The notes beneath the pieces are model-generated. The model ran no database searches. It was given only the letters and a program-made list of their open reading frames with translations, and had not been told where the DNA came from. From Agromyces humatus (lineage in GTDB: Bacteria; Actinomycetota; Actinomycetes; Actinomycetales; Microbacteriaceae), in the NCBI RefSeq assembly GCF_021228295.1, contig NZ_JAJQPD010000002.1, positions 496,001-560,000 on the forward strand: a stretch of 64,000 nt of DNA. Direction: 5' to 3'. Every line of letters begins with the position of its first letter. The stretch's first letter is position 1. The position numbers were made by a program, and so were the translations under genes. Below, piece by piece: positions 44,120 through 64,000 of the stretch.

Positions 44120-44647
44120 TTACACCGTGCCGATCGAGAGGCGGTCCACGCGCAGGCCGAGCTCGCCGAGGTACAGGGTCGATCCGTCGACCACTTCGGT
44201 TGGCGTGCCCGGCGACGACTCGACGAGCGCGCCAGAGGGTGGCTGCACTCGAACACCGTTGGTCGAGTGCAGGTCGATGACCGTCACGACGCCGTTGCGG
44301 GCGTCGATGGCGGCGTGGGTCTTGGAGACCGAGCGGGCCGGGTCGACGACCGAGATCGGCCTGGCATCGGCGTGAGCGCCGGCCGCGACCGGGTCGCGCC
44401 CGATCACGATCGGCAGGGTCAGCAGCACCTCGAATCCTCCCGGTCCGGTCAGCCGGAACGGGCCGGGCGAAGCGGATGCCGCTGGGGTCGGTGCTGGCGG
44501 GCCGGCGGGCACGGGGGTGAAGGTCGGCAGCACCCGCGCGGGCGCGCGGACCGTGCGCTCGGGCTCGGTCGATGTCGGCGGCGTCGCCGGTTCGGGCGCG
44601 TTCGGGATGAGCCCCGGAGGGGGGACGATGAAGTCCGGCGCAACCAC
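44120..44647 (-). CDS. Small FHA domain protein
   Basis: 175 residues. The first 70 are Pro/Ala/Thr-rich and probably disordered. The rest is one forkhead-associated domain that binds phosphothreonine peptides: IGRDP (first conserved Gly-Arg), RSVSKTHAAID (Ser and His) and DLHSTNGVRV (Asn). No membrane segment is seen, so it is cytoplasmic. It ends the signalling cluster, 9 bp after the transglutaminase-like gene, and uses the rare stop TAA. The Thr-rich N-terminal part could itself be phosphorylated by the kinase at 60959; that is inference. Confidence 0.88.
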   Translation of the reverse strand: MVAPDFIVPPPGLIPNAPEPATPPTSTEPERTVRAPARVLPTFTPVPAGPPAPTPAASASPGPFRLTGPGGFEVLLTLPIVIGRDPVAAGAHADARPISVVDPARSVSKTHAAIDARNGVVTVIDLHSTNGVRVQPPSGALVESSPGTPTEVVDGSTLYLGELGLRVDRLSIGTV

Positions 44648-46951: not shown

Positions 46952-48246
46952 GGACGAACCCTCCGCACGAGTCGCTGCAGGTCGGCGAGCGACCCCACGG
47001 TGATGACGGTGGTGCCCGCGATGCTCGCGATGCGCGAGGCGGCGCCGGCCTCGACACGGAACGCGAGCATCTGCGTGTCGGGGCCGAACACCGTCTCGAC
47101 CGATCGGAACTCGGCGAGGGGCACGGCCGAACCGCCCACGACGATGGCGATGCTGGGGGCCGCGAGCCGCTTGGTGCCGTCGCGCACGAACTCCCGCAGC
47201 GAGTCGAACGCACCGCTCACCGCCTCGATGCGACTGGTGTCGTCGAGCAGCACGGTCGGCGTCGCGGTACGCAGCTTGCGGCCCTCGGTGACGACGTCGA
47301 GGCGTGTTCCGTCTCGGATGACCTGGACGCCGAGCGAGGCGAGCACCGAGACGCCGAGCTCGAACTCGTCGTCGGACGCGTAGTGCGAACGTTCGGTCGA
47401 CTGGGCCAGCACGAGCTGCGACCGCCGGGTCTCCTCGTACTGGCGCACCATGAGCTGGCCGGTGCGCGCCGACGTGCGCCAGTGCACGTTGCGCAGGGCA
47501 TCGCCGGGCTCGTACGCGCGCAGCGCATGGAACGAGATGTCGTTGTCGGTGATCGTCTTCGTGACCTCGCCCTCGAGGTCGCGCACGAGCCCCGCAGCCG
47601 AGGGCTGGAGCCTCGCGGTGACCGGGTGCACGAAGAGCTCGACGGGATCGGTCCACCGCACGACGCGACGCAGCAGCCCCAGCTGGTCGCCGCGCACCGA
47701 CGCCGCCGGCCCGGCCACGATCACGGCACGTCGGTTGGTCGGCACCGCGAAGAGCTCTTCGTGCTGCGCGGCCGGTGCGATCGCGGGGATCACGAACTCC
47801 GCGAGCCCCGCACCGACCGGCAGTTCGAGCCGCGACGGGATCGACGGCGCGCTGCCGACGTTCTCGACCACGAGCTGCCCGAGCGCCCGTTCGCCGGCCA
47901 CCACGCGGCTCGGCTGCAGTGCGATGTCGACCCGGTACTGCATGCGACCGAAGACGAACGGCACCGAGACGAGCAGCGCGGCCGCGAGAGTCGCACCCAG
48001 GAACGCGAACTCGACCCAGCCGAAGCCCCACGCGAGGGTGAACGATACGACGACGGCCCCCAGCACGAGCCATCCGGTCGTCGAGACGACGCCGGTGACC
48101 GGCGCAGACCACCGGGCCACCCGTTTCGCCGTCGCCGCCAGACGGCCGCCGATGGAGCGAGCGGATGCCGCGACCGCTCGCCCGGCGGCACGGAATGCGA
48201 TGCGCGCCTGCGAGGGGACTCGGGGCGCACGGGTCTCGGCCGTCAT
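46948..48246 (-). CDS. DUF58 domain protein, second copy
   Basis: 432 residues with two N-terminal membrane helices (about residues 48-95). The DUF58 core is recognisable in LRAYEPGDALRNVHWRTSA and GQLMVRQYEETRRSQLVLAQ. ATG 48246 overlaps the moxR stop and its own stop overlaps the next start, so moxR, DUF58 and transglutaminase-like gene are translationally coupled. Probably an adaptor or client of the MoxR at 48243. Confidence 0.9.
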   Translation of the reverse strand: MTAETRAPRVPSQARIAFRAAGRAVAASARSIGGRLAATAKRVARWSAPVTGVVSTTGWLVLGAVVVSFTLAWGFGWVEFAFLGATLAAALLVSVPFVFGRMQYRVDIALQPSRVVAGERALGQLVVENVGSAPSIPSRLELPVGAGLAEFVIPAIAPAAQHEELFAVPTNRRAVIVAGPAASVRGDQLGLLRRVVRWTDPVELFVHPVTARLQPSAAGLVRDLEGEVTKTITDNDISFHALRAYEPGDALRNVHWRTSARTGQLMVRQYEETRRSQLVLAQSTERSHYASDDEFELGVSVLASLGVQVIRDGTRLDVVTEGRKLRTATPTVLLDDTSRIEAVSGAFDSLREFVRDGTKRLAAPSIAIVVGGSAVPLAEFRSVETVFGPDTQMLAFRVEAGAASRIASIAGTTVITVGSLADLQRLVRRVRP

Positions 48247-49211
48247 GCCGCCCGGTAGGCCGGCGGCGCGACGTCGACGAGCACGCCCGAGACGATGTCT
48301 TCCGCGGCGACGCCCGCGAACTCCGACTCGGGGTCGACGATGATGCGGTGCGCGAGCACCGGCACGGCGAGGTCGCGAACGTCGTCGGGGGTCACGTAGG
48401 TGCGGCCGTGCGCGATCGCCCACGTCTTCACCGTGCGGGCGAGCGCGAGCGCCCCGCGCATGCTGACGCCGAGCGACGAGTCCTTGTGCGCGCGCGTCGC
48501 GGCGACGATGTGGTTGAGGTACGAGAGCACCGCCGCGTCGACGTAGACCTCGGAGGCCAACTGCGCCATCGTCGTCACCGAGCTCGCCGCGATGATCGGT
48601 GAGACCTTCGATGCGCGCGCGCGGTTCGCCGAGTCGAGCAGCAGGGTCACGGCGGTGTCGTGGTCGGGGTAGCCGAGCGACGTCTTGATGAGGAAGCGGT
48701 CGAGCTGCGCCTCGGGCAGCGAGTAGGTTCCGGCCTGCTCGACGGGGTTCTGCGTCGCGATCACCATGAACGGGCTGCCCACCTCGTAGCTCACGCCGTC
48801 GACGGTGACCCGGCCCTCCTCCATGACCTCGAGCAGCGACGACTGCGTCTTCGGGCTCGCGCGGTTGATCTCGTCGGCCAGCACGATCGACGCGAAGATC
48901 GGGCCGCGATGGAACTCGAAGTGTCCCTTGCCCTGGTCGTAGATCGTGACGCCGGTGACGTCGGAGGGCAGCAGGTCGGGCGTGAACTGGATGCGCGAGT
49001 GCGTGCCGTCGAGGGTGTTGGCGAGCGCCTTCGCGAGCACGGTCTTGCCCGTGCCCGGGAAGTCCTCGAGCAGCACGTGGCCGTCGGAGAGCAGCGCGGT
49101 GACGACGAGTTCGATGACCTCGCGCTTGCCGAGGATCGCCTGGTCGATGTTGTCGACGAGCTTCGAGAAGGCGTCCTGGAACCACTGCGCCTGTTCTTGG
49201 GTCACTGCCAC
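48243..49211 (-). CDS. MoxR family AAA+ ATPase, second copy
   Basis: 322 residues. Walker A is EDFPGTGKTVLAKAL (Lys56), Walker B is [20 protein letters not shown], and VIATQNPVEQAGTYSLPEAQ is the sensor region. It is a paralogue of the MoxR at 30820, with the same core but a different N-terminus (AVTQEQAQWFQDAF). It is the first gene after the shared promoter element at 49332-49373, about 120 bp upstream. Likely remodels or activates the surface-protein apparatus together with the DUF58 protein. Confidence 0.93.
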   Translation of the reverse strand: MAVTQEQAQWFQDAFSKLVDNIDQAILGKREVIELVVTALLSDGHVLLEDFPGTGKTVLAKALANTLDGTHSRIQFTPDLLPSDVTGVTIYDQGKGHFEFHRGPIFASIVLADEINRASPKTQSSLLEVMEEGRVTVDGVSYEVGSPFMVIATQNPVEQAGTYSLPEAQLDRFLIKTSLGYPDHDTAVTLLLDSANRARASKVSPIIAASSVTTMAQLASEVYVDAAVLSYLNHIVAATRAHKDSSLGVSMRGALALARTVKTWAIAHGRTYVTPDDVRDLAVPVLAHRIIVDPESEFAGVAAEDIVSGVLVDVAPPAYRAA

Positions 49212-49331
49212 GTTCGTTGTCTCCTCATGCTGGCGGCGCGACGGACACGCCGAACGACTTCATTTTGAACCGGGAGTCACGGTCGGCCCCCACCGCGCGG
49301 TCGCGGCGCCACGGACGACGCGCGAATCACG

Positions 49332-49373
49332 CTAACACGGCGCCTGCCGTCCCCCGAATGGGGACGTCTCCCC
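49332..49373 (-). promoter_or_regulatory. Shared promoter/operator element, copy upstream of moxR
   Basis: On the minus strand: GGGGA-n4-TCCCC (49373-49360), then 22 bp containing a further GGGGA, then TGTTAG (49337-49332). The same arrangement with identical spacing stands at 60191-60232. The TGTTAG may be the -10 element and the 14-bp palindrome an operator or activator site. It lies in the 181-bp gap between the stop of the giant protein gene and moxR, about 120 bp upstream of the moxR start. Confidence 0.6.
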
Positions 49374-49392
49374 ACCGCGCATTCGATGCGAT

Positions 49393-52300
49393 TCAGCAAT
49401 CTGCCACGCTCCGTCCGGCCCGGTTCGTGTCGCTCGCGCGAATGAACCAGCCGTTGTACACACCCGACTCGTGCCGCAGGTAGAACCAGTCGGATCCGTT
49501 GCGCTGCGAGCGGCAGACGGCGTCGATGACGCTGCCGGCGGGGATGCGCCCGGCCGGGTTCATGGTGCACCCGAGGTCGAGGTTCGTCGGCGGGTTGTTG
49601 TAGGTCGAGTCGGGCTCGGGACACGCCGCCGTCGCAACGACGGTGTGGTTCGTCGGCGTCCAGGGTGCCGTCGCGGTCGCGATGTTCGACGCCGTCCAGT
49701 CACCGCACGCGCGGGCGTTGCACGCCTGCACCTCGAAGCGATGCGGAACGCCGATGGCCGCCGAACCGGTGTGGCCGAGGTCGGGCGTCGATCCGCTCAT
49801 CGTGCTGTTCAGGGTCATGCGCCAGTTGTAGTCCGTCACGGGGCGACCGCCGTCGAACGCCGGCGGGGTCCACGAGATCGTGATGCGACCTGAGCCGTCG
49901 CTCGACGCGTCGAGACGGGCGCTCGCGGGTGCGCTCGGCTTGCCGAAGGGGACCGCGGTGCGGCTCGCTGCGGACGGCTCGGAGACTCCCTTGTCGTTCG
50001 TCGCGGTGACCCTGAAGGTGTATGGGCTGCCGTTCGACAGCCCCGAGATCGTCTGCGGCACGCCGTCTGCTGAGGCCGGGAAGTCCCGGCTCGAGGTGCC
50101 GTACGACACGGTGTAGCCGGTGATCGGCGAATTGTTCGACGCGTTCGCGCGCCACGTCAGGTTCACCGTGCCGTCGCCGTCGGAGACACCGGTGATCGTC
50201 GGGGCATCGGGCCGGTCTCGCACGATCACGGTCACTCGACCCTGAGCCTGGCGCGCGACATCCTTCGTCGCGTCCTCGATGCGGTAGATGATGCTGAGGG
50301 TGCCGCTGAAGATCGGCCCGGTACGCACGGTGATGCCAGACGACGTGTGCGACACCGTGGCGCTCGATCCGACCCCGCTCGAGTCGATCTCGGCGCCGAT
50401 CACGCGCAGCGGCCGGTCGGGGTCGAACGGGTTGACATCGTTGTCGAGCACCGGGATCGCGAGCGTCGCGCTGCGCACCATCTCTCGCGGACCGTCGTCG
50501 ACGGCCCGCGGCTTCGGCCGCGTGGACGACACGACCCGGATATCGACATAGCCCGGCACCGAGAACTCGTCGAATCCGACGTCGAAGCTGAGCCGCACGC
50601 CGTTTCCTGGCTGCACCCCGATCGGCGATGAGACCCGCAGGATCGAGCCGTCGATGATCGCAGCGTCGACATCGGAGCTCGCACCATCGAGCCCGGTGAA
50701 CTCGAGCCGGTCGATGATCTCGGGATTCGGGTGATCGCTCGACGCTCGCAAGTCGATCTCGAGCGGGGCCTCGCCCGCCTCGATGATCTCGGATCGCGGC
50801 GTGAACGTCGGCGGGGTGTCACGGAATCCCGGGTCGCCGACCGTGATGGGGATCGTCAGGATCGCGCGGCGCCCGGCCGGGTCGCTCGGCCCGTCGCCGT
50901 CGGTCACCTCGAAGCTGACGGATGCCTCGCCGCGGAAGTCCCGCTCGGGAACGAAGCGCAAGGTCTCGGCGTCGACGAACGGCGACGACTCGGCACGCAT
51001 CGCCGTCGCGGCGAGGATCGTGGCGGGCTTGCCGCTCGGCACCTCGACGAGCTCCGCGACATCCCACCCGATGCTGCCGTTCATCGGGACGACGACGTCT
51101 CCGACGTCTTTGAGGTGGGGCGCGGCGAACTTCGCACGCTCCTCGGCGAGCAGTTCCTCCGGCGTCTTCTCACGCTCCTCGAGTTCAGCGGGGCGGTCCC
51201 CGTCGGGCACCGCGGGGACGACGACGAACGCCATGGCGCTCAGGTCGTCGACCTCGTTCGTCACTCGGTAGGCGACCGCGAACCGCTTCGAGCCAGGCTC
51301 GACGTCGATGCTTCCGTCGTCATGCACGACGGCCCGCGACGCGTTCGGGCCCTCGACCCGCACGGTCAGGTCGTCGACGAGTCCGCCGGGGTTCGTCGCG
51401 TCGCTCAGAGGGCGCACGTTGACCGCCTCGCCCGCGACGACCGCTTCGGGCTCGATGACCTGGTCTTCCGCGGTCGGCGGCGCGATGACGGCGTCGTCGC
51501 TCACGGTCACCTGCACGAACGCCGAGTCGACACCGCCGTGCCCGTTCGAGATCTCGTAGCGGAACGAGAAGCTTCCCTCGCGGTCGGGCGCGGTGAGCAC
51601 GATGCGTCGGTCGTCGTGCACCTCGGCGCCGAGGCCGGCGTCGACGTCGCCGAGGTCGCCGACCTCGATTGCATGCCCGTTCGGGTCGGAGTCGTTGAGC
51701 AGCACCTCGATCGACGCCGTGCGCCCCGGCCGCAACTCGACGACATCGTCGACCGCCGCCGGTGGCGACTGCACCGCCGGCCGTGGAATCACCCCGATGC
51801 GCACCGTGCCGATCGCCGTCTCGCCTCGGGTGTCGCGCACCTCGTAGCCGAAGGTGTCGGTTCCGCCGCTGCCCACGAGCGCCTCGTACGTGATCTGCGT
51901 GCTCGTGCGCTCGATGATGCGGCCGAGCGAGGGCGGAGTCGAGATGCCCGTGAGCACGACCGAATCACCGTCGGGGTCGAGCCCGTCGAGTGGCACGTCG
52001 ATCTTCACCGCGGAGCCCGAGAACGTGCGCGAGGTCAACGGCGTCGGGATCGGGCCGCGGTTCTCGGTCTCGTCGCCGACGACGTGGAATCTCACCGAGG
52101 CCCGGGAATGCTGCTCGAAGTCGTCGCCCACGGTGTAGACCACCGAGTACTCCCCCGGTTGCTCGGGCGCCTGGAACCGCACGAAATCGCCGCTGACGAA
52201 CGCGAGTCCTTCACCGACGAGCGCGTCGCTCAGTTCGGCGCCGACGTGCATGGTCGCGGCATCCGGATGGTGGTCGTTGCCCAGCACGTCGACCCGCGCG

Positions 52301-54696
52301 ATATCACCGGCGCGCACCGTGACGACATCGTCGACGGCGACCGGCGGCTGGTGCTTCACGAGGGGCGTGACCGGCACGACGGTGACCGTGGAGCTCGCGG
52401 TGTTCACGCCGTCCGAGATCGTGTACGCGAACCGCAGCTGCCGGTCGAGCGCCTCGGTCGTGCTGACGCGGGCGACGGTGTTGGTGAGCAACTCCACCGA
52501 GACGAGACCCTCGGCGGCGGTGTCGTCGACGGCCTGCACTGCGAGCACCCGGCCCGAGGGCGAGACGTCGTTGGCGAGCAACGGCACCGAGACGGGCTCG
52601 CCCGGCCGCAGGTACGCCGTGTCCTTCACCGCGACCGGAGGCGGCACGTCATCGGGTGCCTCGACGACCTCGACGCGGACGAGGCCCCTGCTCACCGCCG
52701 GTCCCGCCGCGAGGTCGTAAAGGAACAGGTACGAGCCCGGCACGCCGCTCGAGAACGCGATCGTGCCGCGCTCGGGGTTGGGCACGGCTCGAGCATCGGC
52801 CGACACCTCGTCGACGCTCGCGAGGGCGAGTGCGGCGCCCGATGGAGACAGGTCGTTGGCGAGCGGTTCGATCTCGACCGTCTCGCCTGTGAACGCCTGC
52901 ACGAAGTCGGGCGTGCCGACGGGGTTCAGGCTCCCCGACGGCGCGACCTCGACGGCGAGCGTGCCGGTCGCCGTGACGGTGCCGTCGGAGACGACGTACT
53001 GCACCTCCTTCGCGCCGGGCGTGCCCGACCGGTGCTCGAAGGTGACCTGTCCGTCGGGGCTGAACCGTACGGTGTCGCCGCCGACCGGCGATGCGGACAC
53101 GAGCGACAGGTCGTCACCATCGGGATCGATCCAGTCGACGAGCACGTTGGTGCCGAGTCGTTGCCCCTGCTCGACGGTGATGCCCGCGGCACGCAGCGCG
53201 GTCGGCGCCGCGTTCTCGCTCACGGGAACGACGCGAACGTCGACGGATGCCTCGGCCAGGCCGCCCCGGCCATCGTCGAGGCCGTACCGGAACGAGGCGG
53301 TGCCGACGAAACCGTCGGAAGGCGTGAACTGCAGCGCGCGTCCGCCGTCGATCGCGTCGAGGCGCCCCGCGGACTCGGCGAGCTCGGGTACTCCTTCGAC
53401 GACCAGCACGTCGCCGTCGGGGTCGGTGTCGTTGGCGAGCACGTCGAGGATCGTCGCGCGCCCCGGACGCGCTCCCATGGCGTCGTCGCGGGCGAGCGGC
53501 GGCCGGTTCTGGTCGGTGCGCTCGGCGAGCGTGTCTTCGAACGTCTGCTGCGAGCTCTGCTCCTCACCCTCCTCGTCGTCGCCTTCTTCGGGCGGCGTGA
53601 CCTCTTCCCAGTTGTCGACCAGCCGCATGTCGGACTCGACGAGCCAGGCGTCGCCGTTCGTGAGGTTGTTGAGGGCGATGACGTCGCGGTTCACGCGGAA
53701 CTCGAGCCGACCGGCCGTGGTCGGCTGGTCGATCGCGACGGCTCGCGCGGCGACGTCGTCGCACGCGGCGAGGTAGCGGGCGGCGGCTGCCCAAGCCCCG
53801 TGCGTGCAGGAATCGACTCGCACGGGCGCCGCAACCGATCCCGAGTCAGTGGGCCCGCGGCTGTCGGTGTCGGCGTCGTCCGCGTCGTCGGCGGGCACGA
53901 TGCGCACCGCGCCGCCGTCGAGCGGCACCGCGATCAGACCGGCGGATGTCGCGACCCAGGCATCCTCCGACGCGGGGCCGCTCTGCTGCAGCCGCACGCC
54001 GGGCCGTGGGAGATCGATCGATCGACCTCGAACGACGACCTGATCGGCCTCGGTGTCGAGGATGACTGCATCGTCGCCCACCGCCGCGAGCTCGTGCTCG
54101 CCGAGCTTCGGCACTTCGACCGACGTCGGCTCAGCCTCGATGCGGAGGGTGTGCAGGCGCCGCTCGCCGGGGTCGCTCGCGAACACGGTTCCGGTGGAGG
54201 ACACGGCGATCCTGCTGTCGGCACCGAGCTCGAGCACCGGTTCCGCGGCGGGGTCGAATGCGAGCTCTCCCGCGGCGGGAACCGTCCACATCTCGCCCTT
54301 CGGCGAGAGCACCGCGATCGTGTCGCCGCCATAGGCGAGCTGCGACCCGATCGGCACGTCGATGCGCTCATCGAGCGTGGTGAATGCGGGGTCGACGCGT
54401 TCCACGGCCCCGACCGCGCGATCGTAGAGGAATACGTGGTCGCCGTTCTGGAACACGTCGACCTCGTTCGAGCCGACGGCCACGGCGGCGTCGAGCTCTT
54501 CGATCTGGCGGTTCAGACGGCCCGCGAGGAGGTCTTCCGCGTTCGTCACCCACACGTCGCGTGCGCGCAGTTCAGGGTCGGTCACCGGGAACCCCTGATG
54601 CAACACGGCCAGGGCGAGCGGACCTCCGACGAGCACCGCGAAGCAGGCGACGGTCGCGATCGACCGCCGCCCGCCGAACCCACGGGGTCGCATCAT
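49393..54696 (-). CDS. Giant surface protein with propeller-like, cadherin/Ig-like and FN3 domains (copy A1)
   Basis: 1767 residues. A short basic N-terminus and one membrane helix (residues about 12-32) anchor it with the bulk outside. Residues about 45-345 look like a beta-propeller (AYGGDTIAVLSPKGEMW, IAVSSTGTVFASDPGERRL). An acidic linker near 370-390 is followed by cadherin/Ig-like repeats with ANDTDPDGD and LLANDVSPSG motifs to about residue 1180. A helical EEREKTPEELLAEERAKF linker, two more beta domains, fibronectin III domains from about 1500 (ITGYTVSYG), and a C-terminal SH3-like part with Cys pairs (from about 1685) complete it. It is a paralogue of the next gene with a different tip. 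Likely an adhesin or envelope organiser. Confidence 0.85.
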   Translation of the reverse strand: MMRPRGFGGRRSIATVACFAVLVGGPLALAVLHQGFPVTDPELRARDVWVTNAEDLLAGRLNRQIEELDAAVAVGSNEVDVFQNGDHVFLYDRAVGAVERVDPAFTTLDERIDVPIGSQLAYGGDTIAVLSPKGEMWTVPAAGELAFDPAAEPVLELGADSRIAVSSTGTVFASDPGERRLHTLRIEAEPTSVEVPKLGEHELAAVGDDAVILDTEADQVVVRGRSIDLPRPGVRLQQSGPASEDAWVATSAGLIAVPLDGGAVRIVPADDADDADTDSRGPTDSGSVAAPVRVDSCTHGAWAAAARYLAACDDVAARAVAIDQPTTAGRLEFRVNRDVIALNNLTNGDAWLVESDMRLVDNWEEVTPPEEGDDEEGEEQSSQQTFEDTLAERTDQNRPPLARDDAMGARPGRATILDVLANDTDPDGDVLVVEGVPELAESAGRLDAIDGGRALQFTPSDGFVGTASFRYGLDDGRGGLAEASVDVRVVPVSENAAPTALRAAGITVEQGQRLGTNVLVDWIDPDGDDLSLVSASPVGGDTVRFSPDGQVTFEHRSGTPGAKEVQYVVSDGTVTATGTLAVEVAPSGSLNPVGTPDFVQAFTGETVEIEPLANDLSPSGAALALASVDEVSADARAVPNPERGTIAFSSGVPGSYLFLYDLAAGPAVSRGLVRVEVVEAPDDVPPPVAVKDTAYLRPGEPVSVPLLANDVSPSGRVLAVQAVDDTAAEGLVSVELLTNTVARVSTTEALDRQLRFAYTISDGVNTASSTVTVVPVTPLVKHQPPVAVDDVVTVRAGDIARVDVLGNDHHPDAATMHVGAELSDALVGEGLAFVSGDFVRFQAPEQPGEYSVVYTVGDDFEQHSRASVRFHVVGDETENRGPIPTPLTSRTFSGSAVKIDVPLDGLDPDGDSVVLTGISTPPSLGRIIERTSTQITYEALVGSGGTDTFGYEVRDTRGETAIGTVRIGVIPRPAVQSPPAAVDDVVELRPGRTASIEVLLNDSDPNGHAIEVGDLGDVDAGLGAEVHDDRRIVLTAPDREGSFSFRYEISNGHGGVDSAFVQVTVSDDAVIAPPTAEDQVIEPEAVVAGEAVNVRPLSDATNPGGLVDDLTVRVEGPNASRAVVHDDGSIDVEPGSKRFAVAYRVTNEVDDLSAMAFVVVPAVPDGDRPAELEEREKTPEELLAEERAKFAAPHLKDVGDVVVPMNGSIGWDVAELVEVPSGKPATILAATAMRAESSPFVDAETLRFVPERDFRGEASVSFEVTDGDGPSDPAGRRAILTIPITVGDPGFRDTPPTFTPRSEIIEAGEAPLEIDLRASSDHPNPEIIDRLEFTGLDGASSDVDAAIIDGSILRVSSPIGVQPGNGVRLSFDVGFDEFSVPGYVDIRVVSSTRPKPRAVDDGPREMVRSATLAIPVLDNDVNPFDPDRPLRVIGAEIDSSGVGSSATVSHTSSGITVRTGPIFSGTLSIIYRIEDATKDVARQAQGRVTVIVRDRPDAPTITGVSDGDGTVNLTWRANASNNSPITGYTVSYGTSSRDFPASADGVPQTISGLSNGSPYTFRVTATNDKGVSEPSAASRTAVPFGKPSAPASARLDASSDGSGRITISWTPPAFDGGRPVTDYNWRMTLNSTMSGSTPDLGHTGSAAIGVPHRFEVQACNARACGDWTASNIATATAPWTPTNHTVVATAACPEPDSTYNNPPTNLDLGCTMNPAGRIPAGSVIDAVCRSQRNGSDWFYLRHESGVYNGWFIRASDTNRAGRSVADC
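53481..53557 (-). repeat. 77-bp near-identical block, copy in giant gene A1
   Basis: Matches 58914-58990 at 76 of 77 bases, with one mismatch at 53542 (C) versus 58975 (G). It codes for the end of the acidic linker and SSQQTFEDTLAERTDQNR. Flanking stretches of the two genes differ at roughly one base in ten, so this block is more alike than its surroundings. Confidence 0.85.
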
Positions 54697-54756
54697 CGGG
54701 TCAGAGGTTCACTCGTTCGTCGTCGGTTGTGCTCGAAGGGCTGTCGGTGAGCGTGT

Positions 54757-57700
54757 TCACCACGTGTTGTAGCCGATGTTGTTCCACTGGGATCCGCTGA
54801 TCGCACCAAGGGTGCGCGAGGTGCCGCCGCTGACGTTCTCGAAGCGCACCGCGATCGTCTCCCCTGCCAGGCGCCTGCCGAGGTGGTTCTGGAGCTCCTT
54901 GTTGCCACTCGCGCCGATCGTGACGGTCTCCCTGTAGCTGCCGACGCCGGCTCCGTTGACCGTCGCATACACGCGGTACGTGCCCGGATCCATATCCGTC
55001 CACGTGATGCGCACGTTCGCGCACCCGCCCCCGCCGCTGTCGCACGCCTGGCTTCCGCCCTTGCCGATCGATCCCGAAGGCACCGGCGGCGGGGCGTTCT
55101 GCACGCCCACGTTGACCGACGCGACGCCGCTCGTTCCGCCGCCGTTGTTGTTCACGGCACGCACGTCGACACGGTGCGTGCCCGCGCCGATGCCGCCGAA
55201 CGAGGTGGACGTGCCGCTCACGTCCTTCCAGTTGCCGCCCGCGATGCGCGCCTCGTAGCGCACGCCACCGCCGCCGGTGTCGCTCGGGGCGTTCCAGTCG
55301 ACGTTCACGGTCGTGGGGGCGTATCCGGCGGCGTTCGCACTGAGGCTGCGCGGCTCGCTCGGGCGCCCGTACGGCGTCGCCGACGTACCGCCCGATGGCG
55401 CGCTCCACCCGATGCCGTTCTCGGCGCGAACGGTGAATCGATAGGTCGTGCCGTTGGTGAGTCCGCGGATGGTCTGGTCGACGCCCACCGCCGAGGCGTC
55501 GAACATCTGCGAGCCGCCGTTCCACTGCACTTCGTACCGGGTGATCGGCGAATTGTTGGTCGCCGGCGCACCCCAGCGCACGGTCGCAGTACCCGCGGCC
55601 GCTGAGACCACCGGGGCGTTCGGTGCGTCGGGCTCGTCGCGCACGACGACCGTGACGCGGCCCTGGGTCTCGCGGGCGGCATCCTTCGTGCCGTCTTGGA
55701 TGCGGTAGATCACGCTGAGCGTGCCCGTGAACGCCGCACCCGTGCGCACCGTGATGCCGGTCTCGGTGAAGCTCACCGACGCGTTCGACCCGACGTCGAC
55801 CTGGTCGATCGCCGCGGCGACGACGCGCAACGGCACTCCGTCTTGCTCGAACGGGTTGAAGTCGTTCGCGAGCACGTCGACGTCGCTCGTCTCACCACGC
55901 TGCATGTACACGGGGCCGTCGTCGTTCGCCTTCGGCAGTGCACGGGTCGACGAGACGACCTTGACGTCGACGTAGCCGGGCACCGTGAACTCGTTGAAGC
56001 TCACGTCGAACGTGAGTCGCGTCGCAGCGCCGGGTTGCACGCCGAGCGGCGACGACACGCGCAGCGTGGCGCCGTCGACGATCTCGGCGGTGATGTCACC
56101 CGTCATGCCGGCGAGGTTCGTGTAGGTGATGCGCTCGATGTTGTCGGGGTTCGGCTGGTCGCTCGACGAGCGCAGGTCGAGCTCGATCGGCGCCTCACCG
56201 GCCTCGAGCGTCTCGGAGCGTGGGGTGAATGTCGGCGGCGTGTCGTTGAAGTCGGGGTCGCCGACGGTGATCGGGATCGTGAGCAGCGCCTTGCGCCCGA
56301 TCGGGTCGGCGGCGTTCGCACCGTCGGTGACCTCGAAGGTCATCGACGCCTCTCCGCGATAGTCCTGGGCGGGTGCGTACCGCAGGGTCGTTCCGTCGAC
56401 CAAAGCCGGTTCGCGGGCGTTGGTCGACGACGCCGTCAGGACGAGGGCCGGTTTGCCCGACGGCACCTCGACGAGGTCGGAGACGCTCCACTCGATCTGC
56501 CCGTTCATCGGCACGATGACCTGGCCGATGTCCTTGAGGAACGGTGCGGGGAACTTTGCACGCTCTTCGGCGGCGAGCTCCTCAGGGGTCTTCGGCTTCT
56601 GCGTCTCTTCGACGACCGGCTCGTCTTCGCCACTCGGCACGGGCGGCACGATCACGAACGCCATCGCATCGAGGTCGTCGAGCTCGTTCGTCAGCCGGTA
56701 GGCGACCGCGAAGCGCTGGCGACCGGGCGTCACGTCGATCGTGCCGTCGGCGTGCACCTCGGCGCGGTCGGCGTTCGGGCCCTCGACGGTGACGGCGAGG
56801 TCTTCGACGAGGCCGCCGGGATTCGTGGCGTCGTTCAGCGGACCGACCGTGATGGGCGTGTCGTCGACGACCTGCTCGGGTTCGATGACCTGGTCTTCGG
56901 CGGTCGGCGGCAGGATCACGGCGTCTTCGGTGACCGCGACCTGCAGGAACGCCGTGTCGGCACCGCCGTGGCCGTTGGAGATCTCGTAACGGATCGTGTA
57001 GGCGCCTTCGGCGTCGGGCGCCTCGACCACGACCCGTCGACGGTCGCGGATCTCGGCCGAGATCCCCTCGTCGACTTCGGGCAGGTCGGCGACGTGGAGC
57101 TGGAACCCGCTCGGATCGGAGTCGTTGAGCAGCACCTCGACCGATGCGGTGCGCCCCGGCTTCATCTCGATCGAGTCGTCGACGGCCTTCGGGGGCAGCT
57201 GCACAGCCGGACGCGGGATCACGCCGATGCGGATCGTGCCGGTCGCGGTGGCGCCGAGCGTGTCGCGCAGCTCATAGGAGAACTCGTCGGTGCCGGCGGA
57301 GCCCGAGAACGCCTCGTACGTGAACGAGGTGCTCGTTCGCTCGATCACGCGACCGAGATTCGGGGCGACGGTGATGCCCGTGAGCATGACCGAGTCACCA
57401 TCGGGATCGAGACCGTCGAGCGGCACGTCGATCTTGACCGCCGACCCGGCGAACGTGCGCGAGGTGAGCGGCGTGGGCAGCGGTGCGCGGTTCTCGCCGG
57501 CATCGCGCGCGACCACCGTGAAACTCACGGTCGCGCGCGCCGTCTGCTCGAAGTCGTCACCGATCGTGTACACCGCGGTGTGGACGCCGGGCTCCTCGGG
57601 CGCCTGGTAGCGCACCATGTCGCCGTCGACGAACGCGAGGCCCGCCAGCTCGTCGGTGTCGGCGAGGTCGGGCAGCACGTGCAGCGCGGCCGCATCGGGG

Positions 57701-60165
57701 TGGTAGTCGTTGGCGAGCACCGGCACGGTCACGATGTCGCCGGCTCGCACGTTGACACCGTCGTTGATCGCCACCGGCGGCTGGTGCTTCACCAGGGGCG
57801 GCACCGGCACGACCGTGACGGTCGCGGTCGACGAGTTGACGCCGTCGGAGACGGTGTACGCGAACTGCAACTGCCGGTCGAGGGCTGCCGACGCGGTCAC
57901 CCGCGTCACGGTGTTCGTCAGGATCTCGACCGACACCAGTCCTTCAGTCGCGGTGTCGTCGATCGATTGCACGGCGAGCACCCGGCCCGACGGCGACACG
58001 TCGTTGGCGAGCACGGGCACCGACAGCGGTTCACCGGGTCGCAGGTATGCCGTGTCCTTCACGGCGATCGGCGCGGGAGCGGCCTCGGGCGGTTCGGTCA
58101 CCTGCACGCGCAGCAGGCCGACGCTCACGGTGGCACCGGCGCCGAGGTTGTAGAGGAAGATGTACTCGCCCGGATCGCCGCTCGAGAACGCGATCGTGCC
58201 GCGTTCGAGGTTCGGCGTGACGGATGCCCCGTCGGGCACGCCTTCGACGCCGAGCAGTTCGAGCGCAGCGCCCGAGGGTGACAGGTCGTTGGCGAGGGGC
58301 TCGAGGAGCTCGGTCTCGCCGACGAACACCTGGGCGAAGTCGGGCGTGCCGATGGGGTTGAGCGAACCGGCCGGTTTCACCTCGACGATGAGGGTGCCGG
58401 CGGCGGTCGTCTGGCCGTCGCTGACCGTGAACTTCACCTCTTTGAGGCCGAGCTCGGCCGACTTGTGCTCGAAGGTGAGGAACCCGTCGGGGCTCGACCG
58501 CACGGAGTCACCGCCGGTCGGAGACGCGTTCACGAGGTAGAGGTCGTCACCGTCGGGGTCGTTCCAGTCGGCGAGCACGTTGTATGAGATCTTCTGGCCC
58601 TGCTCGACGCTCACGGCGCCCGAGCGGATCGAGACGGGCGCCGCGTTCTCGGATTCGGGAACGATGCGCACGTTGACGGATGCCTCGGCCACGCCCGCGC
58701 GGCCGTCGTCGACCGAGTACCGGAACGACACCGAGCCTGCCGCGCCCTCGGCCGGCGAGAACTGCAGCGCACGCCCGCCGTCGATGAGCTCGAGCTTGCC
58801 CGAGGCCTCGGACACGTCGGTCGTCGAGGCGACCGTGAGCACATCGCCGTCGGGGTCGGTGTCGTTCTCGAGCACCTCGAGGATCGTGGTGCGGCCCGGG
58901 CGCACGCCGTACTCGTCGTCGCGGGCGAGCGGCGGCCGGTTCTGGTCGGTGCGCTCGGCGAGCGTGTCTTCGAAGGTCTGCTGCGAGCTCTTCTCCTCGC
59001 CCTCCTCCTCTTCGCTCTCTTCGGGAGGGGTCACCTCCTCCCAGTTGTCGACGAGCCGCAGATCGGAGTCGACGAGCCACGCGTTGCCGTTGGTGAGGTT
59101 GTTCAGCACGATGACGTCGCGGTTGACGCGGAACTCGAGGCGCGACCCGCCGGTGGGCTGCTCGATGTCGAGCAGCGTCGGCTCGGCGCCGCCGCATGCG
59201 GCGAGGTAGCGGCCGGTCTCGGCCCACGCGCCGTGCACGCAGCCGGCGAGTTGCACCGGCGCCGCGACATCCGCCGCGTTCGTCGTCGACCCCGGTGCCC
59301 CGTTCTCGAGCTCTCGCACCTCGCCGCCGCCGAGCGGCACCTCGAGCAGGCCGGCAGCCGTGGCGACGTAGGCGGCCTCGTGGTCGGCGCCCGACTGCTG
59401 CAGCCGAAGCCCGCCGTCGGGAAGCTCGATCGAGCGGTCGTCGACGATGAGGGTGTTCGACTCCTCATCGAACACGACCGCGCGCTCGCCGACCGCCGCG
59501 AGCTGGTGCCCGCTGAGCTTGGGCACCGCACTCTGCTGAGGCTTGTCGGCGCCGCGCTCGAACCGCAGCAGCGTCGAACCGCCCTCGGCGGTCGCGAACA
59601 CCGTGCCCTTCGGGCTGACCGCGACGCGTCCTTCGCCGCCGAGCTCGGCGATCGGGTCGCTGCCACGCCAGTCGAACGACAGTTGGTCGCCCGCGGCGAC
59701 GGTCCAGAGCTCGCCCTTCGGCGACAGCACGGCCAGCACGTCGCCGCCGTACGCGATCTGCGAAGCCGGGGGAACGTCGATGCGCTCGACAAGCGTCGTG
59801 AACGACGGGTCGATGCGCTCGATCGACCCCACGCCCGGGTCGTAGACGAACGCGTCGCTGCCGTTCTGGAACACGTCGATCTCGTTCGATGCGGTCGACA
59901 CGGCCGCGTCGAGCTCTTCGATCTGCCGGTTCAGCCGGCCCGCGAGCAGGTCTTCGGCGTTCGTCACCCAGACCTCTCGCGCATGCAGCTCGGGATCGGT
60001 GACGGGGTAGCCCTGATGCAGCACCGCGAACCCCAGCGGCACGCCCGCGAGCACCGCGATGGAGGTGCCCGAGGCGATCGATTTGCGCGCACGGATCCAC
60101 GCGGTGAATCGGCTCAAGATCGTCTCCCGGGGCGTCCGTCGGTAGGGCTCGTCGGATGGGCCCAC
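54757..60165 (-). CDS. Giant surface protein with propeller-like, cadherin/Ig-like and FN3 domains (copy A2)
   Basis: 1802 residues, paralogue of A1 and 60 bp upstream of it. The N-terminal cytoplasmic part is longer (about 28 residues), then a membrane helix (IASGTSIAVLAGVPLGFAVL). The propeller-like region, acidic linker (about 382), repeats with ENDTDPDGD and VLANDVSPSG, the helical PKTPEELAAEERAKF linker (about 1190) and the first FN3 domain (about 1508-1595) follow A1 closely. The end differs: a second FN3 domain (about 1598), then a Gly/Asn-rich beta region with ACDSGGGGCANV. The GTG at 60165 is 26 bp after the TGTTAG of the shared promoter, which supports this start. Confidence 0.83.
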   Translation of the reverse strand: MGPSDEPYRRTPRETILSRFTAWIRARKSIASGTSIAVLAGVPLGFAVLHQGYPVTDPELHAREVWVTNAEDLLAGRLNRQIEELDAAVSTASNEIDVFQNGSDAFVYDPGVGSIERIDPSFTTLVERIDVPPASQIAYGGDVLAVLSPKGELWTVAAGDQLSFDWRGSDPIAELGGEGRVAVSPKGTVFATAEGGSTLLRFERGADKPQQSAVPKLSGHQLAAVGERAVVFDEESNTLIVDDRSIELPDGGLRLQQSGADHEAAYVATAAGLLEVPLGGGEVRELENGAPGSTTNAADVAAPVQLAGCVHGAWAETGRYLAACGGAEPTLLDIEQPTGGSRLEFRVNRDVIVLNNLTNGNAWLVDSDLRLVDNWEEVTPPEESEEEEGEEKSSQQTFEDTLAERTDQNRPPLARDDEYGVRPGRTTILEVLENDTDPDGDVLTVASTTDVSEASGKLELIDGGRALQFSPAEGAAGSVSFRYSVDDGRAGVAEASVNVRIVPESENAAPVSIRSGAVSVEQGQKISYNVLADWNDPDGDDLYLVNASPTGGDSVRSSPDGFLTFEHKSAELGLKEVKFTVSDGQTTAAGTLIVEVKPAGSLNPIGTPDFAQVFVGETELLEPLANDLSPSGAALELLGVEGVPDGASVTPNLERGTIAFSSGDPGEYIFLYNLGAGATVSVGLLRVQVTEPPEAAPAPIAVKDTAYLRPGEPLSVPVLANDVSPSGRVLAVQSIDDTATEGLVSVEILTNTVTRVTASAALDRQLQFAYTVSDGVNSSTATVTVVPVPPLVKHQPPVAINDGVNVRAGDIVTVPVLANDYHPDAAALHVLPDLADTDELAGLAFVDGDMVRYQAPEEPGVHTAVYTIGDDFEQTARATVSFTVVARDAGENRAPLPTPLTSRTFAGSAVKIDVPLDGLDPDGDSVMLTGITVAPNLGRVIERTSTSFTYEAFSGSAGTDEFSYELRDTLGATATGTIRIGVIPRPAVQLPPKAVDDSIEMKPGRTASVEVLLNDSDPSGFQLHVADLPEVDEGISAEIRDRRRVVVEAPDAEGAYTIRYEISNGHGGADTAFLQVAVTEDAVILPPTAEDQVIEPEQVVDDTPITVGPLNDATNPGGLVEDLAVTVEGPNADRAEVHADGTIDVTPGRQRFAVAYRLTNELDDLDAMAFVIVPPVPSGEDEPVVEETQKPKTPEELAAEERAKFPAPFLKDIGQVIVPMNGQIEWSVSDLVEVPSGKPALVLTASSTNAREPALVDGTTLRYAPAQDYRGEASMTFEVTDGANAADPIGRKALLTIPITVGDPDFNDTPPTFTPRSETLEAGEAPIELDLRSSSDQPNPDNIERITYTNLAGMTGDITAEIVDGATLRVSSPLGVQPGAATRLTFDVSFNEFTVPGYVDVKVVSSTRALPKANDDGPVYMQRGETSDVDVLANDFNPFEQDGVPLRVVAAAIDQVDVGSNASVSFTETGITVRTGAAFTGTLSVIYRIQDGTKDAARETQGRVTVVVRDEPDAPNAPVVSAAAGTATVRWGAPATNNSPITRYEVQWNGGSQMFDASAVGVDQTIRGLTNGTTYRFTVRAENGIGWSAPSGGTSATPYGRPSEPRSLSANAAGYAPTTVNVDWNAPSDTGGGGVRYEARIAGGNWKDVSGTSTSFGGIGAGTHRVDVRAVNNNGGGTSGVASVNVGVQNAPPPVPSGSIGKGGSQACDSGGGGCANVRITWTDMDPGTYRVYATVNGAGVGSYRETVTIGASGNKELQNHLGRRLAGETIAVRFENVSGGTSRTLGAISGSQWNNIGYNTW
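58914..58990 (-). repeat. 77-bp near-identical block, copy in giant gene A2
   Basis: Partner of 53481-53557, 76 of 77 bases identical, including third codon positions. Encodes the junction between the acidic linker and the first cadherin-like repeat. Confidence 0.85.
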
Positions 60166-60190
60166 TCAGACTCGCGGGCCGGGCCTCAAC

Positions 60191-60232
60191 CTAACATGTG
60201 CCATTCGTCCCCTGAAATGGGGAGGTCTCCCC
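60191..60232 (-). promoter_or_regulatory. Shared promoter/operator element, copy upstream of giant gene A2
   Basis: On the minus strand: GGGGA-n4-TCCCC (60232-60219), a second GGGGA, and TGTTAG (60196-60191). The distance from TGTTAG to the palindrome is the same as at 49332-49373. It lies just downstream of the FHA-HTH gene and 26 bp from the A2 start codon, so transcription would begin close to the GTG. Confidence 0.6.
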
Positions 60233-60242
60233 GTGGGCGTGT

Positions 60243-60962
60243 TCACGCATCGTTCACCGCAGACGGGTCGGCGTCGCCTGCGCCGTCGAGGAGCACCAGG
60301 TCATCGGCGCTCACGAGCCGGGTCGCCACGGCGTACTCGACGAGGCGCGCACGACGGTTCGTCGCGAGCTTGCCGCGCCCGCCTCGCAGCCCCTCGACGC
60401 CGAGCTTGTCGAGCTTCTCGCACACGTTGTCGAGCTTTCGGTTGAACGTCGTCATGCTCCACCCGAGGCGCGCCGCGGCCTCGGCCGAGCTCGGCACCGG
60501 GGCGCGGCCCGCGGTCGGCTGGGCGAGCAGGTTCTCGGCGAGTGCGACGACGAGCTGACGCTGGCTCGTGGTGAGCGTCACCGGCAGCACCGTCGTGCTG
60601 CCCGCCGAGCTCGTCGACGTGAGCGAGGTGTTGTAGAAGTCCTCTTCGGCGTGCACGGTGAAGTCGTAGGTGGTCGCGCCGGCGCTGAACATGACGTGCA
60701 CGGTCTGGAACACCAGCGGCAGCTTGGCACCGGGGGCGACCCACGCCTGCACGCTGCCGGTGGCGTCGGAGACGGTCGCCGAGAGCAGTTGCCCGACGTT
60801 CGCGAGCCACCAGAGCCCGTACTCGGACGAGAGCGTCAGGAACGTGCGGTGCAGGTAGGGGTTGTCGTCGATCGTGAGGTCGGACTCGCGGCCGATGGTG
60901 AATGGCTCCCCTGCCTCGACGGTGTACCACTCGCCGCAGTACTCGACCTTCAACGGCCTCAT
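60243..60962 (-). CDS. FHA domain protein with C-terminal helix-turn-helix-like region
   Basis: 239 residues. An N-terminal FHA-like domain (residues about 3-110) has GEPFTIGRESDLTI, NPYLHRTFLTLSS and WWLANVGQ. A linker with many Ser/Thr (SLTSTSSAGSTTVLP) leads to a helical C-terminal half resembling a winged or LuxR-like helix-turn-helix (TTSQRQLVVALAENLL; AEAAARLGWSMTTFNRKLDN; LATNRRARLVEYAVATR). The ATG overlaps the kinase stop (ATGA) and follows GAGGGG. It may be a phospho-controlled transcription factor; a palindromic element begins 11 bp past its stop. Confidence 0.8.
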   Translation of the reverse strand: MRPLKVEYCGEWYTVEAGEPFTIGRESDLTIDDNPYLHRTFLTLSSEYGLWWLANVGQLLSATVSDATGSVQAWVAPGAKLPLVFQTVHVMFSAGATTYDFTVHAEEDFYNTSLTSTSSAGSTTVLPVTLTTSQRQLVVALAENLLAQPTAGRAPVPSSAEAAARLGWSMTTFNRKLDNVCEKLDKLGVEGLRGGRGKLATNRRARLVEYAVATRLVSADDLVLLDGAGDADPSAVNDA

Positions 60963-62677
60963 CCGGAGCATCCCCTCACCGGCTCTGACGTCTTGCTTCC
61001 GCGTTGCACCTGCACGTCGATGCACACGCTCGCCGCACCCGCATCGGCCACCGTGATGGTGGGCCCCTCGGTCACCTCGGTCTGGCCGCTGCCGTCAGCG
61101 CGCTTCCAACGGTACCGGTCGCCGTCTTCGGCGCCGTCATGCGTAACGGCGAAGGCGACGGATGTCCCGTCTGCGCTCACGGCGCCGGGTTCGACGGTGG
61201 GCGCGGGAACCGTCGCGGCGATGACGGCATCCTCGCCGGGCGATGCAGGCCCGGTCTCGGCAGCCGGGGGCGCGACGCTCCCCGACATCGCGATCGACAC
61301 CCCGACCACGCCTGCGACGACCAGGGCCGCTGCCGCACCGATGATGAGCCCGATCTTCGAGCGCCGCGGAACGGTCTGGTCGCGTGACCCGGGGTCCACG
61401 GGCGACGGGGTGAAGGTCGGCGACGCGGGCGACGCCGACGCCCGACGCGGCCGTACCACGGTGGCGTCGGGCGCATCGCCGGCGGGAGCGTCGGCTCCGA
61501 CGGACGTGGCTCGCCCGCGCACGACGGTGCCGTCGTCGACCGGCGTGGCGGATGCCGGTACGGCGGCGCCCGTCACGGGTTGCGCCGCGATCTGCTGGGG
61601 AGTCCTGGCACGCGTGCGGTCGTCGTCGACGGGTGCCGGCGCAGTGATCGGGGTGGGCGCGATCGGCGAGCTGCGCGGCGACTGGGCCTCGACCGTGCGC
61701 ACCGATCGCGCGCGGGTGGCATCGGCCGCATCGTCGTCTGCGGACGCCTCGCGCGAGGTCGCGAGGTTCGGCACCTCGATGCTCGTCGCCCCGTACCCGA
61801 GCTCGAGTTCGACGCGCTGCAGCGCCCGGGCGAACTCGACCGCGCTCGGGAAGCGATCGTCGCGCCGCGTGGCCATGCCCTTGGCGAGGACGGCCGTCAG
61901 GCTGCGCGGCACGTCGGCACGGTCGATGGGCGTGATCGCGCCGCGCTCGATGCGCCCCATGAGGTCGAGCGAGCCGTTCGGCCTGCCCGGGATCTCGAAC
62001 GGTGAGCGTCCCGCGACGAGCGTGTACACCGTGGCAGCGAGCGAGAATACGTCGCTGCGGGTGTCGGGCTTCGGGTCGTCCTCGAACATCTCGGGCGGCG
62101 ACCACGGCACGCTCATGCCCACCGCCGACTGACCCGACCCGGTCGCCGTGGCGTCGGGGGCGGTGACGGTGTGCACCGGGAGCTCGCCGTCGAGGTTCGA
62201 CGAGATGCCGAAGTCGGTGAGCGCCGGCCACCCGTAGGCGTTCGTCAGCACGTTCGCGGGCTTGATGTCGCGGTGCAGGATGCCGGCGCCGTGTGCCGTG
62301 GCGATCGCGCCGGCGAGCCGCACACCGGTGCGCAGGGCGTCTTCGATCGTGAACGGCCGGCGCTTGTAGCGCTCCGAGAGGCTCGGCCCCGAGCAGTACT
62401 CCATGACGAAGTACGGGCGCCCGTCGGTCGAGACGTCGGCATGGAAGATCGTGACGATGAACGGGTGGGCCGACAGCTGCGCCATGAGGTTCGCCTCGGC
62501 GACGAACTGAGCCCGTGTGTCGCGGCCGAGTTCTTCGGTGAGCAGTACCTTCACGGCGACCTTGCGCCGTGGCAGTTTCTGCTCGTAGAGGAAGACGTCG
62601 GCGAAGCCGCCCGAGCCGAGCAGGCCGTGCGAGGTATAGCCGGGCAGTTCCGGTGGTGACGACGGTGCCCGGCGCAT
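60959..62677 (-). CDS. Transmembrane Ser/Thr protein kinase (PknB type)
   Basis: 572 residues. The N-terminal kinase domain has the Gly loop LLGSGGFADVFL, Lys43 (VAVKVLL), Glu61, HRDIKPANVL (Asp137), TDFGISS (Asp155) and SVPWSPPEMFEDDPKPDTRSD; it should be active. A Thr/Pro/Ala-rich juxtamembrane region (residues 300-440) repeats TVVR-type motifs (TVVRGR, TVVRPRR). One helix at about 442-464 is followed by an outer domain of about 105 residues with two Cys, which could sense envelope ligands; no PASTA repeats are present. It starts at the preceding FHA gene's stop and overlaps the next gene. Confidence 0.93.
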   Translation of the reverse strand: MRRAPSSPPELPGYTSHGLLGSGGFADVFLYEQKLPRRKVAVKVLLTEELGRDTRAQFVAEANLMAQLSAHPFIVTIFHADVSTDGRPYFVMEYCSGPSLSERYKRRPFTIEDALRTGVRLAGAIATAHGAGILHRDIKPANVLTNAYGWPALTDFGISSNLDGELPVHTVTAPDATATGSGQSAVGMSVPWSPPEMFEDDPKPDTRSDVFSLAATVYTLVAGRSPFEIPGRPNGSLDLMGRIERGAITPIDRADVPRSLTAVLAKGMATRRDDRFPSAVEFARALQRVELELGYGATSIEVPNLATSREASADDDAADATRARSVRTVEAQSPRSSPIAPTPITAPAPVDDDRTRARTPQQIAAQPVTGAAVPASATPVDDGTVVRGRATSVGADAPAGDAPDATVVRPRRASASPASPTFTPSPVDPGSRDQTVPRRSKIGLIIGAAAALVVAGVVGVSIAMSGSVAPPAAETGPASPGEDAVIAATVPAPTVEPGAVSADGTSVAFAVTHDGAEDGDRYRWKRADGSGQTEVTEGPTITVADAGAASVCIDVQVQRGSKTSEPVRGCSG

Positions 62678-63855: not shown

Positions 63856-64000
63856 CTGCGGCCCCTTCGCCTCGCGGCCTCGTCGTCTCGACCGATTCGC
63901 GTCCGCGGTCGCGGGTCGCATCGGCATCGTCGTCGTCGCCCTCGCCGATCGTCGATTCGACGACGACGACGCTGACGTTGTCGCGTCCGCCGTGCTCGAG
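63848..64000 (-). CDS. PP2C-type Ser/Thr protein phosphatase, C-terminal fragment
   Basis: Only the last 50 codons lie in the window. They begin LEHGGRDNVSVVVVESTIGE; the (H)GxxDNxSVVVV strand with its metal-binding Asp is the C-terminal motif of PP2C phosphatases (PrpC/PstP). A tail rich in Asp and Arg follows and ends TRPRGEGAADG, then TGA at 63850-63848. It should reverse the phosphorylation made by the kinase three genes on. The 5' end and the promoter of the cluster are beyond the right edge. Confidence 0.8.
   Translation of the reverse strand, partial: LEHGGRDNVSVVVVESTIGEGDDDDADATRDRGRESVETTRPRGEGAADG

Follow-up and report, generated by a model that had tools for sequence, protein, structure and literature searches.

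Two copies of a 42-bp promoter/operator element lie on the minus strand of the stretch of Agromyces humatus DNA analysed here (64,000 nucleotides, hereafter the window), at 49332-49373 and 60191-60232. Judged by sequence comparison, this element belongs to a small regulon that serves a type VII secretion system (T7SS) of atypical kind. The element is real, and comparative measures make it very likely functional. The window holds a gene cluster with a Ser/Thr kinase, two giant genes for immunoglobulin-like (Ig) envelope proteins and a gene for a protein with an FHA domain and a predicted helix-turn-helix (FHA-HTH). We consider it probable that FHA-HTH binds the inverted repeat of the element and activates a regulon that would join this envelope cluster, which resembles both the PFNA operon and the T7SSd, to a separate T7SS locus. 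The identity of the regulator is likely, and activation appears to be the more probable, though not the only possible, mode.

The first-pass annotation had described the element as GGGGA-n4-TCCCC, an extra GGGGA and TGTTAG at identical spacing, with one copy upstream of moxR and the other upstream of giant gene A2. Both copies and their gene context were confirmed, and the distance from palindrome to TGTTAG is 22 nt in each (28 to the end of TGTTAG). The common parts are not due to chance: GGGGA-n4-TCCCC occurs exactly twice in the window against 0.05 expected, and none of 100 shuffles gave two. The full pattern (palindrome-N20-24-TGTTAG) had 0 matches in 60 simulated windows. In the 4.04-Mb genome it has two (0 forward, 2 reverse), both of them the window copies, and the many random copies elsewhere that the annotation had cautioned about are absent. 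The two copies are identical at 29 of 42 positions without gaps. A large recent duplication is unlikely, because their 100-nt flanks agree at only 27 and 31 of 100 positions. The extra GGGGA is present in both window copies, but 5 nt after the palindrome in one and 6 nt in the other, and it is not generally conserved: only four among 46 related sites have it in the spacer, where shuffled sequence would give 1.6. It was thus ruled out as a third half-site.

The symmetric unit is longer than had been described. It is an 18-bp inverted repeat, ATGGGNA-N4-TNCCCAT, with one mismatch in each window copy. TGTTAG is the left part of TGT-TAGCGT in one copy and of TGT-TAGGTT in the other, both readable as an extended -10. 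The 42-bp block can therefore be described as the 18-bp repeat and a TANNNT that begins about 23 nt further on, preceded here by TG. With TANNNT taken as the -10, transcription would start at the positions given in Table 1, and the centre of the repeat would lie near -44. An extracytoplasmic function (ECF)-type sigma factor with GGGGA as its -35 was set aside, since what is conserved is a symmetric repeat that keeps a fixed distance from TANNNT.

Conservation was followed in the Microbacteriaceae. The named loci are the best 80 of 497 from a search with an alignment of FHA-HTH, and a position weight matrix (PWM) was built from 44 sites of the same 80 loci on which it was scored. It gave 68 matches above 10, with the 44 sites as its training set, against 1 in reversed sequence. 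The element lies within 260 bp of a giant-gene match in 48 of the 80 loci, and sites outside the training set occupy the same place with scores of 41-49 (L015, L016, L020). The gap between repeat and -10 is 22 nt in 35 of 50 sites, 23 nt in 10 and 20, 21 or 24 nt in five. TGn-TANNNT is present at 44 of 46 giant-gene sites, a count that is partly circular because the matrix used to pick the sites includes the -10. The strict full pattern occurs in 14 of 299 family genomes and its reversed control in one. In 6 of the 13 other genomes it stands between the FHA-HTH gene and a giant gene. Elsewhere it precedes WXG100 genes in L018, lies close to a gene of trypsin-like type in L014, is located where a contig ends in L017 and accompanies, in L007, a membrane protein that matches no known family. 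Loci L008-L010 carry a site similar to that of L007, the one locus of these four covered by the gene scan.

Among 59 loci in which moxR was matched, the copy before this gene recurs in one, L030; it is also kept in the sister species Agromyces cavernae (L215:2468, minus strand, PWM score 36.1). It is rarer than the giant-gene copy and therefore looks lineage-specific. The proposal of two internal promoters under one regulator is thus supported by comparative evidence, namely the fixed spacing of operator and -10, the recurrence before giant genes, the moxR copy in the sister species and the strong co-occurrence of the element with the FHA-HTH gene. Control within the cluster alone is too narrow a reading, as the regulon appears to be dispersed and to include a distant T7SS locus. 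Nine loci have weaker PWM matches (9.5-29.2; six of the nine in the direction of the cluster) in the phosphatase/FHA/kinase gene region, some 4.5 kb upstream of the point where the FHA-HTH gene ends, and at L196 a perfect repeat directly precedes the phosphatase gene. These sites suggest that, in some species, the targets include the operon of the regulator itself. In A. humatus, no site was found ahead of the regulator operon within the 8.2 kb examined (L119). At seven loci (L049, L053, L060, L061, L064, L092, L096) the FHA-HTH stop codon is itself part of the operator palindrome, which makes a coding and a regulatory signal overlap.

Eight repeats with no more than one mismatch are present in the A. 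humatus genome, against 0 matches to the reversed-pattern control. Two are the window copies, two are on contig C10 (at 142.7 and 150.6 kb) and four are elsewhere. The repeat at 150.6 kb stands 22 nt before TAGCGT, ahead of a WXG100 gene and beside an FtsK-type ATPase gene (L118:5-2686, covering the greater part of the protein; FtsK_SpoIIIE E 6.6e-34). An FHA match in this ATPase is borderline at E 8.4e-4, its 20.2 bits lying just under the cut-off of 20.7. The repeat at 142.7 kb, about 8 kb away, is one half of a double site (L117 8650-8699), the other half of which has two mismatches and is placed 22 nt before TAGGAT. Further WXG100 proteins are encoded at this locus. Among three related ATPase loci in this genome, only that on C10 has perfect repeats; the one-mismatch repeat nearest to another of them is about 16 kb off. 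The C10 locus also encodes a 1466-residue effector-like protein (L117:10825-15225) with TNT, GH-E and weak papain-fold toxin domains, which probably serves competition between bacteria.

The targets of the repeat in other genomes were surveyed at 60 loci (L140-L199). These were hand-picked from site lists, often for clustered sites, and the share of T7SS targets among them is therefore not an unbiased estimate. With the C10 locus (L117) added, the 61 loci contain 72 perfect repeats, and a downstream gene was called for 70. Pfam was run on 63 of the 70 proteins; the seven left out (L147, L158, L159, L165, L166, L168, L171) were calls that looked wrong-frame. The scanned proteins include 24 WXG100, nine Big_9 (the giant genes), nine WXG100_2, five Tdi1_C, four GAD-like, three FHA and one PP2C, some matching several families. 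At least 38 of the 72 repeats in this non-random sample precede WXG100, giant Ig (Big_9) or T7SS immunity-like (Tdi1_C) genes, and 48 of the 72 have a TANNNT starting 21-24 nt past the repeat. For 116 perfect repeats, all distinct, TANNNT was sought at 20-25 nt downstream; 83 have it on one side or both. Counted by orientation, the box is found in 86 of 232 cases against 3 of 232 at control offsets. At L143, L148 and L151, in three genomes, repeats precede similar small lipoprotein-like genes, which are unexpected targets.

The N-terminal part of FHA-HTH models as an FHA domain, with matches in Foldseek that include 6ccd (Rv1747 FHA-1, E 3.7e-06) among others. Its C-terminal part, modelled alone, has a mean pLDDT of 77.9 and aligns best with HTH folds of the LuxR/NarL type (DegU, TraR, NarL), with Z up to 8.8 and nearly all of the leading matches of this type. 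The alignment with DegU (VIA Z 8.8, rmsd 1.9, 67 aligned residues) is of a quality that a common helical arrangement can also give. We thus regard the protein, from its models, as an FHA domain joined to a putative LuxR/NarL-like HTH. In sequence searches of the PDB, the FHA-HTH profile had no match at E 0.1 and the HTH profile had only two, both with E close to 0.9. Inverted repeats of about 18 bp near -42 are common binding sites of LuxR-type activators, and the predicted fold is consistent with the length of the repeat and its centre near -44. FHA-HTH differs from LuxR/NarL-type activators in its FHA input domain and in lacking a family match at the sequence level. The canonical phosphothreonine-binding residues of FHA domains are Arg, Ser, His and Asn. 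In 42 sequences of FHA-HTH, Arg31, His44 and Asn61 are invariant, but so is Pro41, seemingly where Ser is usual (placement by eye), which makes phosphothreonine binding uncertain.

In the mechanism that we propose, a dimer of FHA-HTH would bind ATGGGNA-N4-TNCCCAT with its centre near -44, in place of a -35 contact, and support the housekeeping RNA polymerase on a TANNNT -10, whether extended or plain. The putative targets are the giant Ig-repeat envelope genes, the separately located T7SS locus with its WXG100 proteins and effectors, in A. humatus also moxR-DUF58-transglutaminase, and in some relatives the phosphatase/kinase/FHA-HTH operon itself. Phosphothreonine signalling may gate the protein, as is suggested by the presence of a kinase, a phosphatase and the FHA domain. 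FHA-HTH could instead be a repressor, or have both roles, and silence the system until a signal arrives. This is rather unlikely. The repeat extends over the -35 region, at which repressors can act as well, and a double site exists on C10, but no TTGACA-like -35 is evident by eye, the extended -10 is present at nearly all giant-gene sites (the partly circular count given above), and a centre near -44 fits activators of the LuxR type.

The first-pass annotation had also suspected FHA-HTH as the regulator, and a strong association between gene and repeat speaks for this. Perfect repeats are present in 92 of 111 family genomes that carry the FHA-HTH gene and in 12 of 188 that do not; carriers hold 267 copies and non-carriers 12 (Fisher p 8.8e-44, not corrected for shared ancestry). 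Within the genus (41 genomes), all 36 carriers have 3-12 sites with up to one mismatch, whereas the five non-carriers have 0, 0, 0, 1 and 1. These five also lack a close giant gene, only paralogues of 29-35 per cent identity being found, and the close ATPase, whose counterparts in G079 and G240 have 73-75 per cent identity. Although far apart, the cluster of the window, the locus on C10 and the repeats thus come and go together, which supports one system. The repeat could, however, be a true regulon operator bound by another protein, whether inherited with the cluster or independent of it. We judge this less probable than repression by FHA-HTH. The cross-tabulation and the genus comparison are consistent with it, as they establish only co-inheritance and the targets are co-inherited as well, and one genome, G066, has a strong site and no FHA-HTH match. 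Against it, Pfam found no DNA-binding domain in the other scanned cluster proteins (FHA-HTH alone was modelled), and the repeat often abuts or overlaps the FHA-HTH stop codon. In addition, five FHA-HTH proteins of Pseudoclavibacter have an altered helix, WTLPTFNRK for WSMTTFNRK, and no good repeat beside their genes. These loci have a degenerate repeat only, yet a conserved -10-like box at the same distance. When a changed operator was sought there, inspection of the alignment by eye gave no more than a degenerate half-site resembling ACGGGNAG, 23 nt ahead of CACAAT. Regulator and operator have possibly changed together in Pseudoclavibacter, for which the half-site is only suggestive.

An action of the palindrome in RNA, as the terminator or attenuator hairpin of an upstream transcript, is highly improbable. 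In both window copies GGGGA-n4-TCCCC-n5/6-GGGGA allows two alternative hairpins (by eye), but among the 116 perfect sites, 37 of the 47 off-consensus cases have bases at the free positions 6 and 13 that make neither a complementary nor a wobble pair, the extra GGGGA is not conserved, and the spacing is fixed to the -10. That the copies arose by chance or as a by-product of duplication of the tandem giant genes, A1 and A2 being paralogues with 63 per cent identity, is refuted by the comparative data, in that shuffled windows gave no pair, the flanks do not align, copy 1 sits after A1 and before moxR and recurs in A. cavernae, and the element recurs at the giant gene across the named loci.

Activation by FHA-HTH has to be weighed against several observations that count against it. 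Four of the eight A. humatus repeats have no comparable promoter (best PWM score 9.4), and 33 of the 116 perfect repeats lack TANNNT at the expected offset, including seven of the nine giant-gene sites of the 61-locus survey. Repeats at L142, L143, L147, L148, L150, L151 and L154 are near genes without an obvious link to T7SS, and the strict-pattern sites at L007-L010 and L014 are by genes without a clear one. The HTH is weak in Foldseek (best E 0.17); it was not found by Pfam or NCBIfam, and no LuxR family of Pfam matches at E 0.1. Co-occurrence cannot separate FHA-HTH from another regulator co-inherited with the targets. Of the 111 carriers, 19 are without a perfect repeat; some named loci without one retain degenerate repeats. 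Lastly, G066 has the full pattern (PWM score 34.2) without an FHA-HTH match, although an assembly gap is possible there because the site is 140 bp from a contig end.

Two known systems are similar to the one proposed; the comparison draws on the available portions of the cited papers. The T7SSd of Actinomycetota was described by Garrett, Higginson and Palmer 2024 (PMC11217815). Its parts are TsdA (WXG100), TsdC (an FtsK-type ATPase with an N-terminal FHA), TsdD (a Ser/Thr kinase), TsdI (a large Ig-like protein with a Sec signal and a C-terminal membrane helix) and TsdH (a small membrane protein). The A. humatus system likewise has WXG100 proteins (L005:1138-1443; Pfam WXG100 E 2.3e-20, NCBIfam TIGR03930 E 2.6e-20), an FtsK-type ATPase, a Ser/Thr kinase and an Ig-like envelope protein of very large size. 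The FHA match of the ATPase is the borderline one given above, and no hydrophobic stretch is apparent by eye at the C-terminus of the giant protein. T7SSd components are in one cluster, whereas here there are two distant loci, on C8 (kinase/giant) and C10 (ATPase/WXG100), which are about 0.56 Mb apart in G240 and 0.69 Mb in G079. As the components are not in one cluster, the system can be said to work like T7SSd and is not filed as a member. MoxR, DUF58, transglutaminase and FHA-HTH are additions here, and the available portion of the T7SSd paper describes no operator or regulator ('promoter' has 0 occurrences and 'transcriptional regulator' 1).

The PFNA operon of Bifidobacterium (PMC8430577) has the same order of kinase, fn3 protein, AAA ATPase, DUF58 and transglutaminase, accompanied by phosphatase and FHA genes, and an internal second transcription start was reported. 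This gene order is found in the window, with FHA-HTH and a second giant gene inserted. One fn3 gene is named for PFNA, and the portion of that paper available to us describes neither an FHA-HTH gene nor a shared operator and has 0 occurrences of 'type VII'; the cluster is discussed for Bifidobacterium as a sensor of immune signals (PMC8430577). EmbR of Mycobacterium tuberculosis (PMC9239209), another transcription factor, interacts with a Ser/Thr kinase through its FHA domain, but differs in domain order, as FHA-HTH has the FHA domain at its N-terminus and a LuxR/NarL-like C-terminus. Among activators of the LuxR/NarL type, DegU-P activates the ESAT-6-like system of Bacillus subtilis (PMC3701619). 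No dedicated regulator of this kind was found in the open-licence literature, as judged by titles and abstract openings among the matches listed.

A shared control element would tie two distant gene clusters to one system and give the PFNA-type cluster a likely place in type VII secretion. It comes with a candidate regulator and a defined 18-bp site, and the site alone may predict further T7SS substrates. A bolder version is possible but falls somewhat short of probable. In it, FHA-HTH would be the phosphothreonine-gated master switch of a two-locus actinobacterial T7SS, an undescribed FHA-LuxR factor fed by its own kinase and phosphatase that co-activates giant Ig, MoxR, WXG100 and effector/immunity genes and, in one genus, a structured small RNA. 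PFNA clusters and their T7SS loci would then be one machine.

In transcription direction on the minus strand, the cluster begins with the PP2C phosphatase, FHA protein, Ser/Thr kinase and FHA-HTH genes, followed by element 2 and A2, and then by A1, element 1, moxR, DUF58, transglutaminase and a second FHA protein (Table 1).

Table 1. Coordinates of the regulatory elements, cluster genes and related sites; window positions unless a locus or contig is named
Feature	Position	Strand	Remarks
Operator 2, 18-bp inverted repeat ACGGGGAGACCTCCCCAT	60217..60234	-	PWM score 44.2
Extended -10 TGTTAGGTT, putative giant-gene promoter	60188..60196	-	inferred start ~60181; geometry kept in relatives
Operator 1, 18-bp inverted repeat GTGGGGAGACGTCCCCAT	49358..49375	-	PWM score 47.8
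Extended -10 TGTTAGCGT, putative moxR promoter	49329..49337	-	inferred start ~49322; kept in Agromyces cavernae
FHA-HTH protein, candidate regulator	60243..61025	-	open frame; probable conserved start around 60962-60971
Giant gene A2, Ig repeats and fn3	54757..60165	-	Big_9 E 1.1e-81, fn3 E 4.3e-14; start near 60118 possible
Giant gene A1	49393..54696	-	Big_9 E 1.7e-81, fn3 E 8.4e-15
MoxR-type AAA ATPase	48243..49211	-	AAA_3 E 4.1e-62
DUF58 protein	46948..48240	-	DUF58 E 3.6e-11; start estimated, within open frame 46948-49185
Transglutaminase-like protein	44657..46970	-	Transglut_core E 1.5e-13; start estimated, within open frame 44657-48112
FHA-domain protein	44120..44647	-	FHA E 9.5e-09
Ser/Thr protein kinase	60959..62677	-	Pkinase E 4.3e-34
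FHA-domain protein	62677..63927	-	FHA E 5.6e-07
PP2C phosphatase gene, upstream of FHA gene 62677..63927	L119:3848-4723		PP2C_2 E 9e-13; extends past window
A. humatus repeats without comparable promoter	C4:179940, C8:80986, C11:195677, C16:73204		
Pseudoclavibacter loci with altered helix	L093, L094, L095, L097, L099		
Conserved ~180-nt stretch	L158:2452-2635, L159:2434-2617, L165:2742-2929, L166:2757-2952, L168:2973-3160		candidate small RNA

At G000:C4:195830-208861, a more distant giant Ig gene of A. humatus (34 per cent identity) lies about 7 kb from another FtsK-type ATPase, and the repeat scan of this genome found no perfect repeat there. The pairing of giant Ig gene and FtsK-type ATPase recurs in G079, G194, G240, G308 and G329, so that giant Ig genes seem to be generally linked to such ATPases.

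In seven loci with non-coding stretches behind the site, ARAGORN found no tRNA or tmRNA, and Rfam gave nothing at gathering thresholds in seven loci that include three of the five described next. In these five genomes, which belong to one genus, a conserved stretch of about 180 nt that folds (-64.8 kcal/mol) comes after the operator and -10. Compensatory changes affect 11 of its 53 pairs in at least one of the five sequences, and it ends in a terminator-like hairpin. This stretch is a candidate small RNA of the regulon. At L162 and L170, in two genomes, a second stretch, nearly identical between them and without a called gene, lies behind the operator on the minus strand, and it could be coding on the opposite strand or be an RNA.

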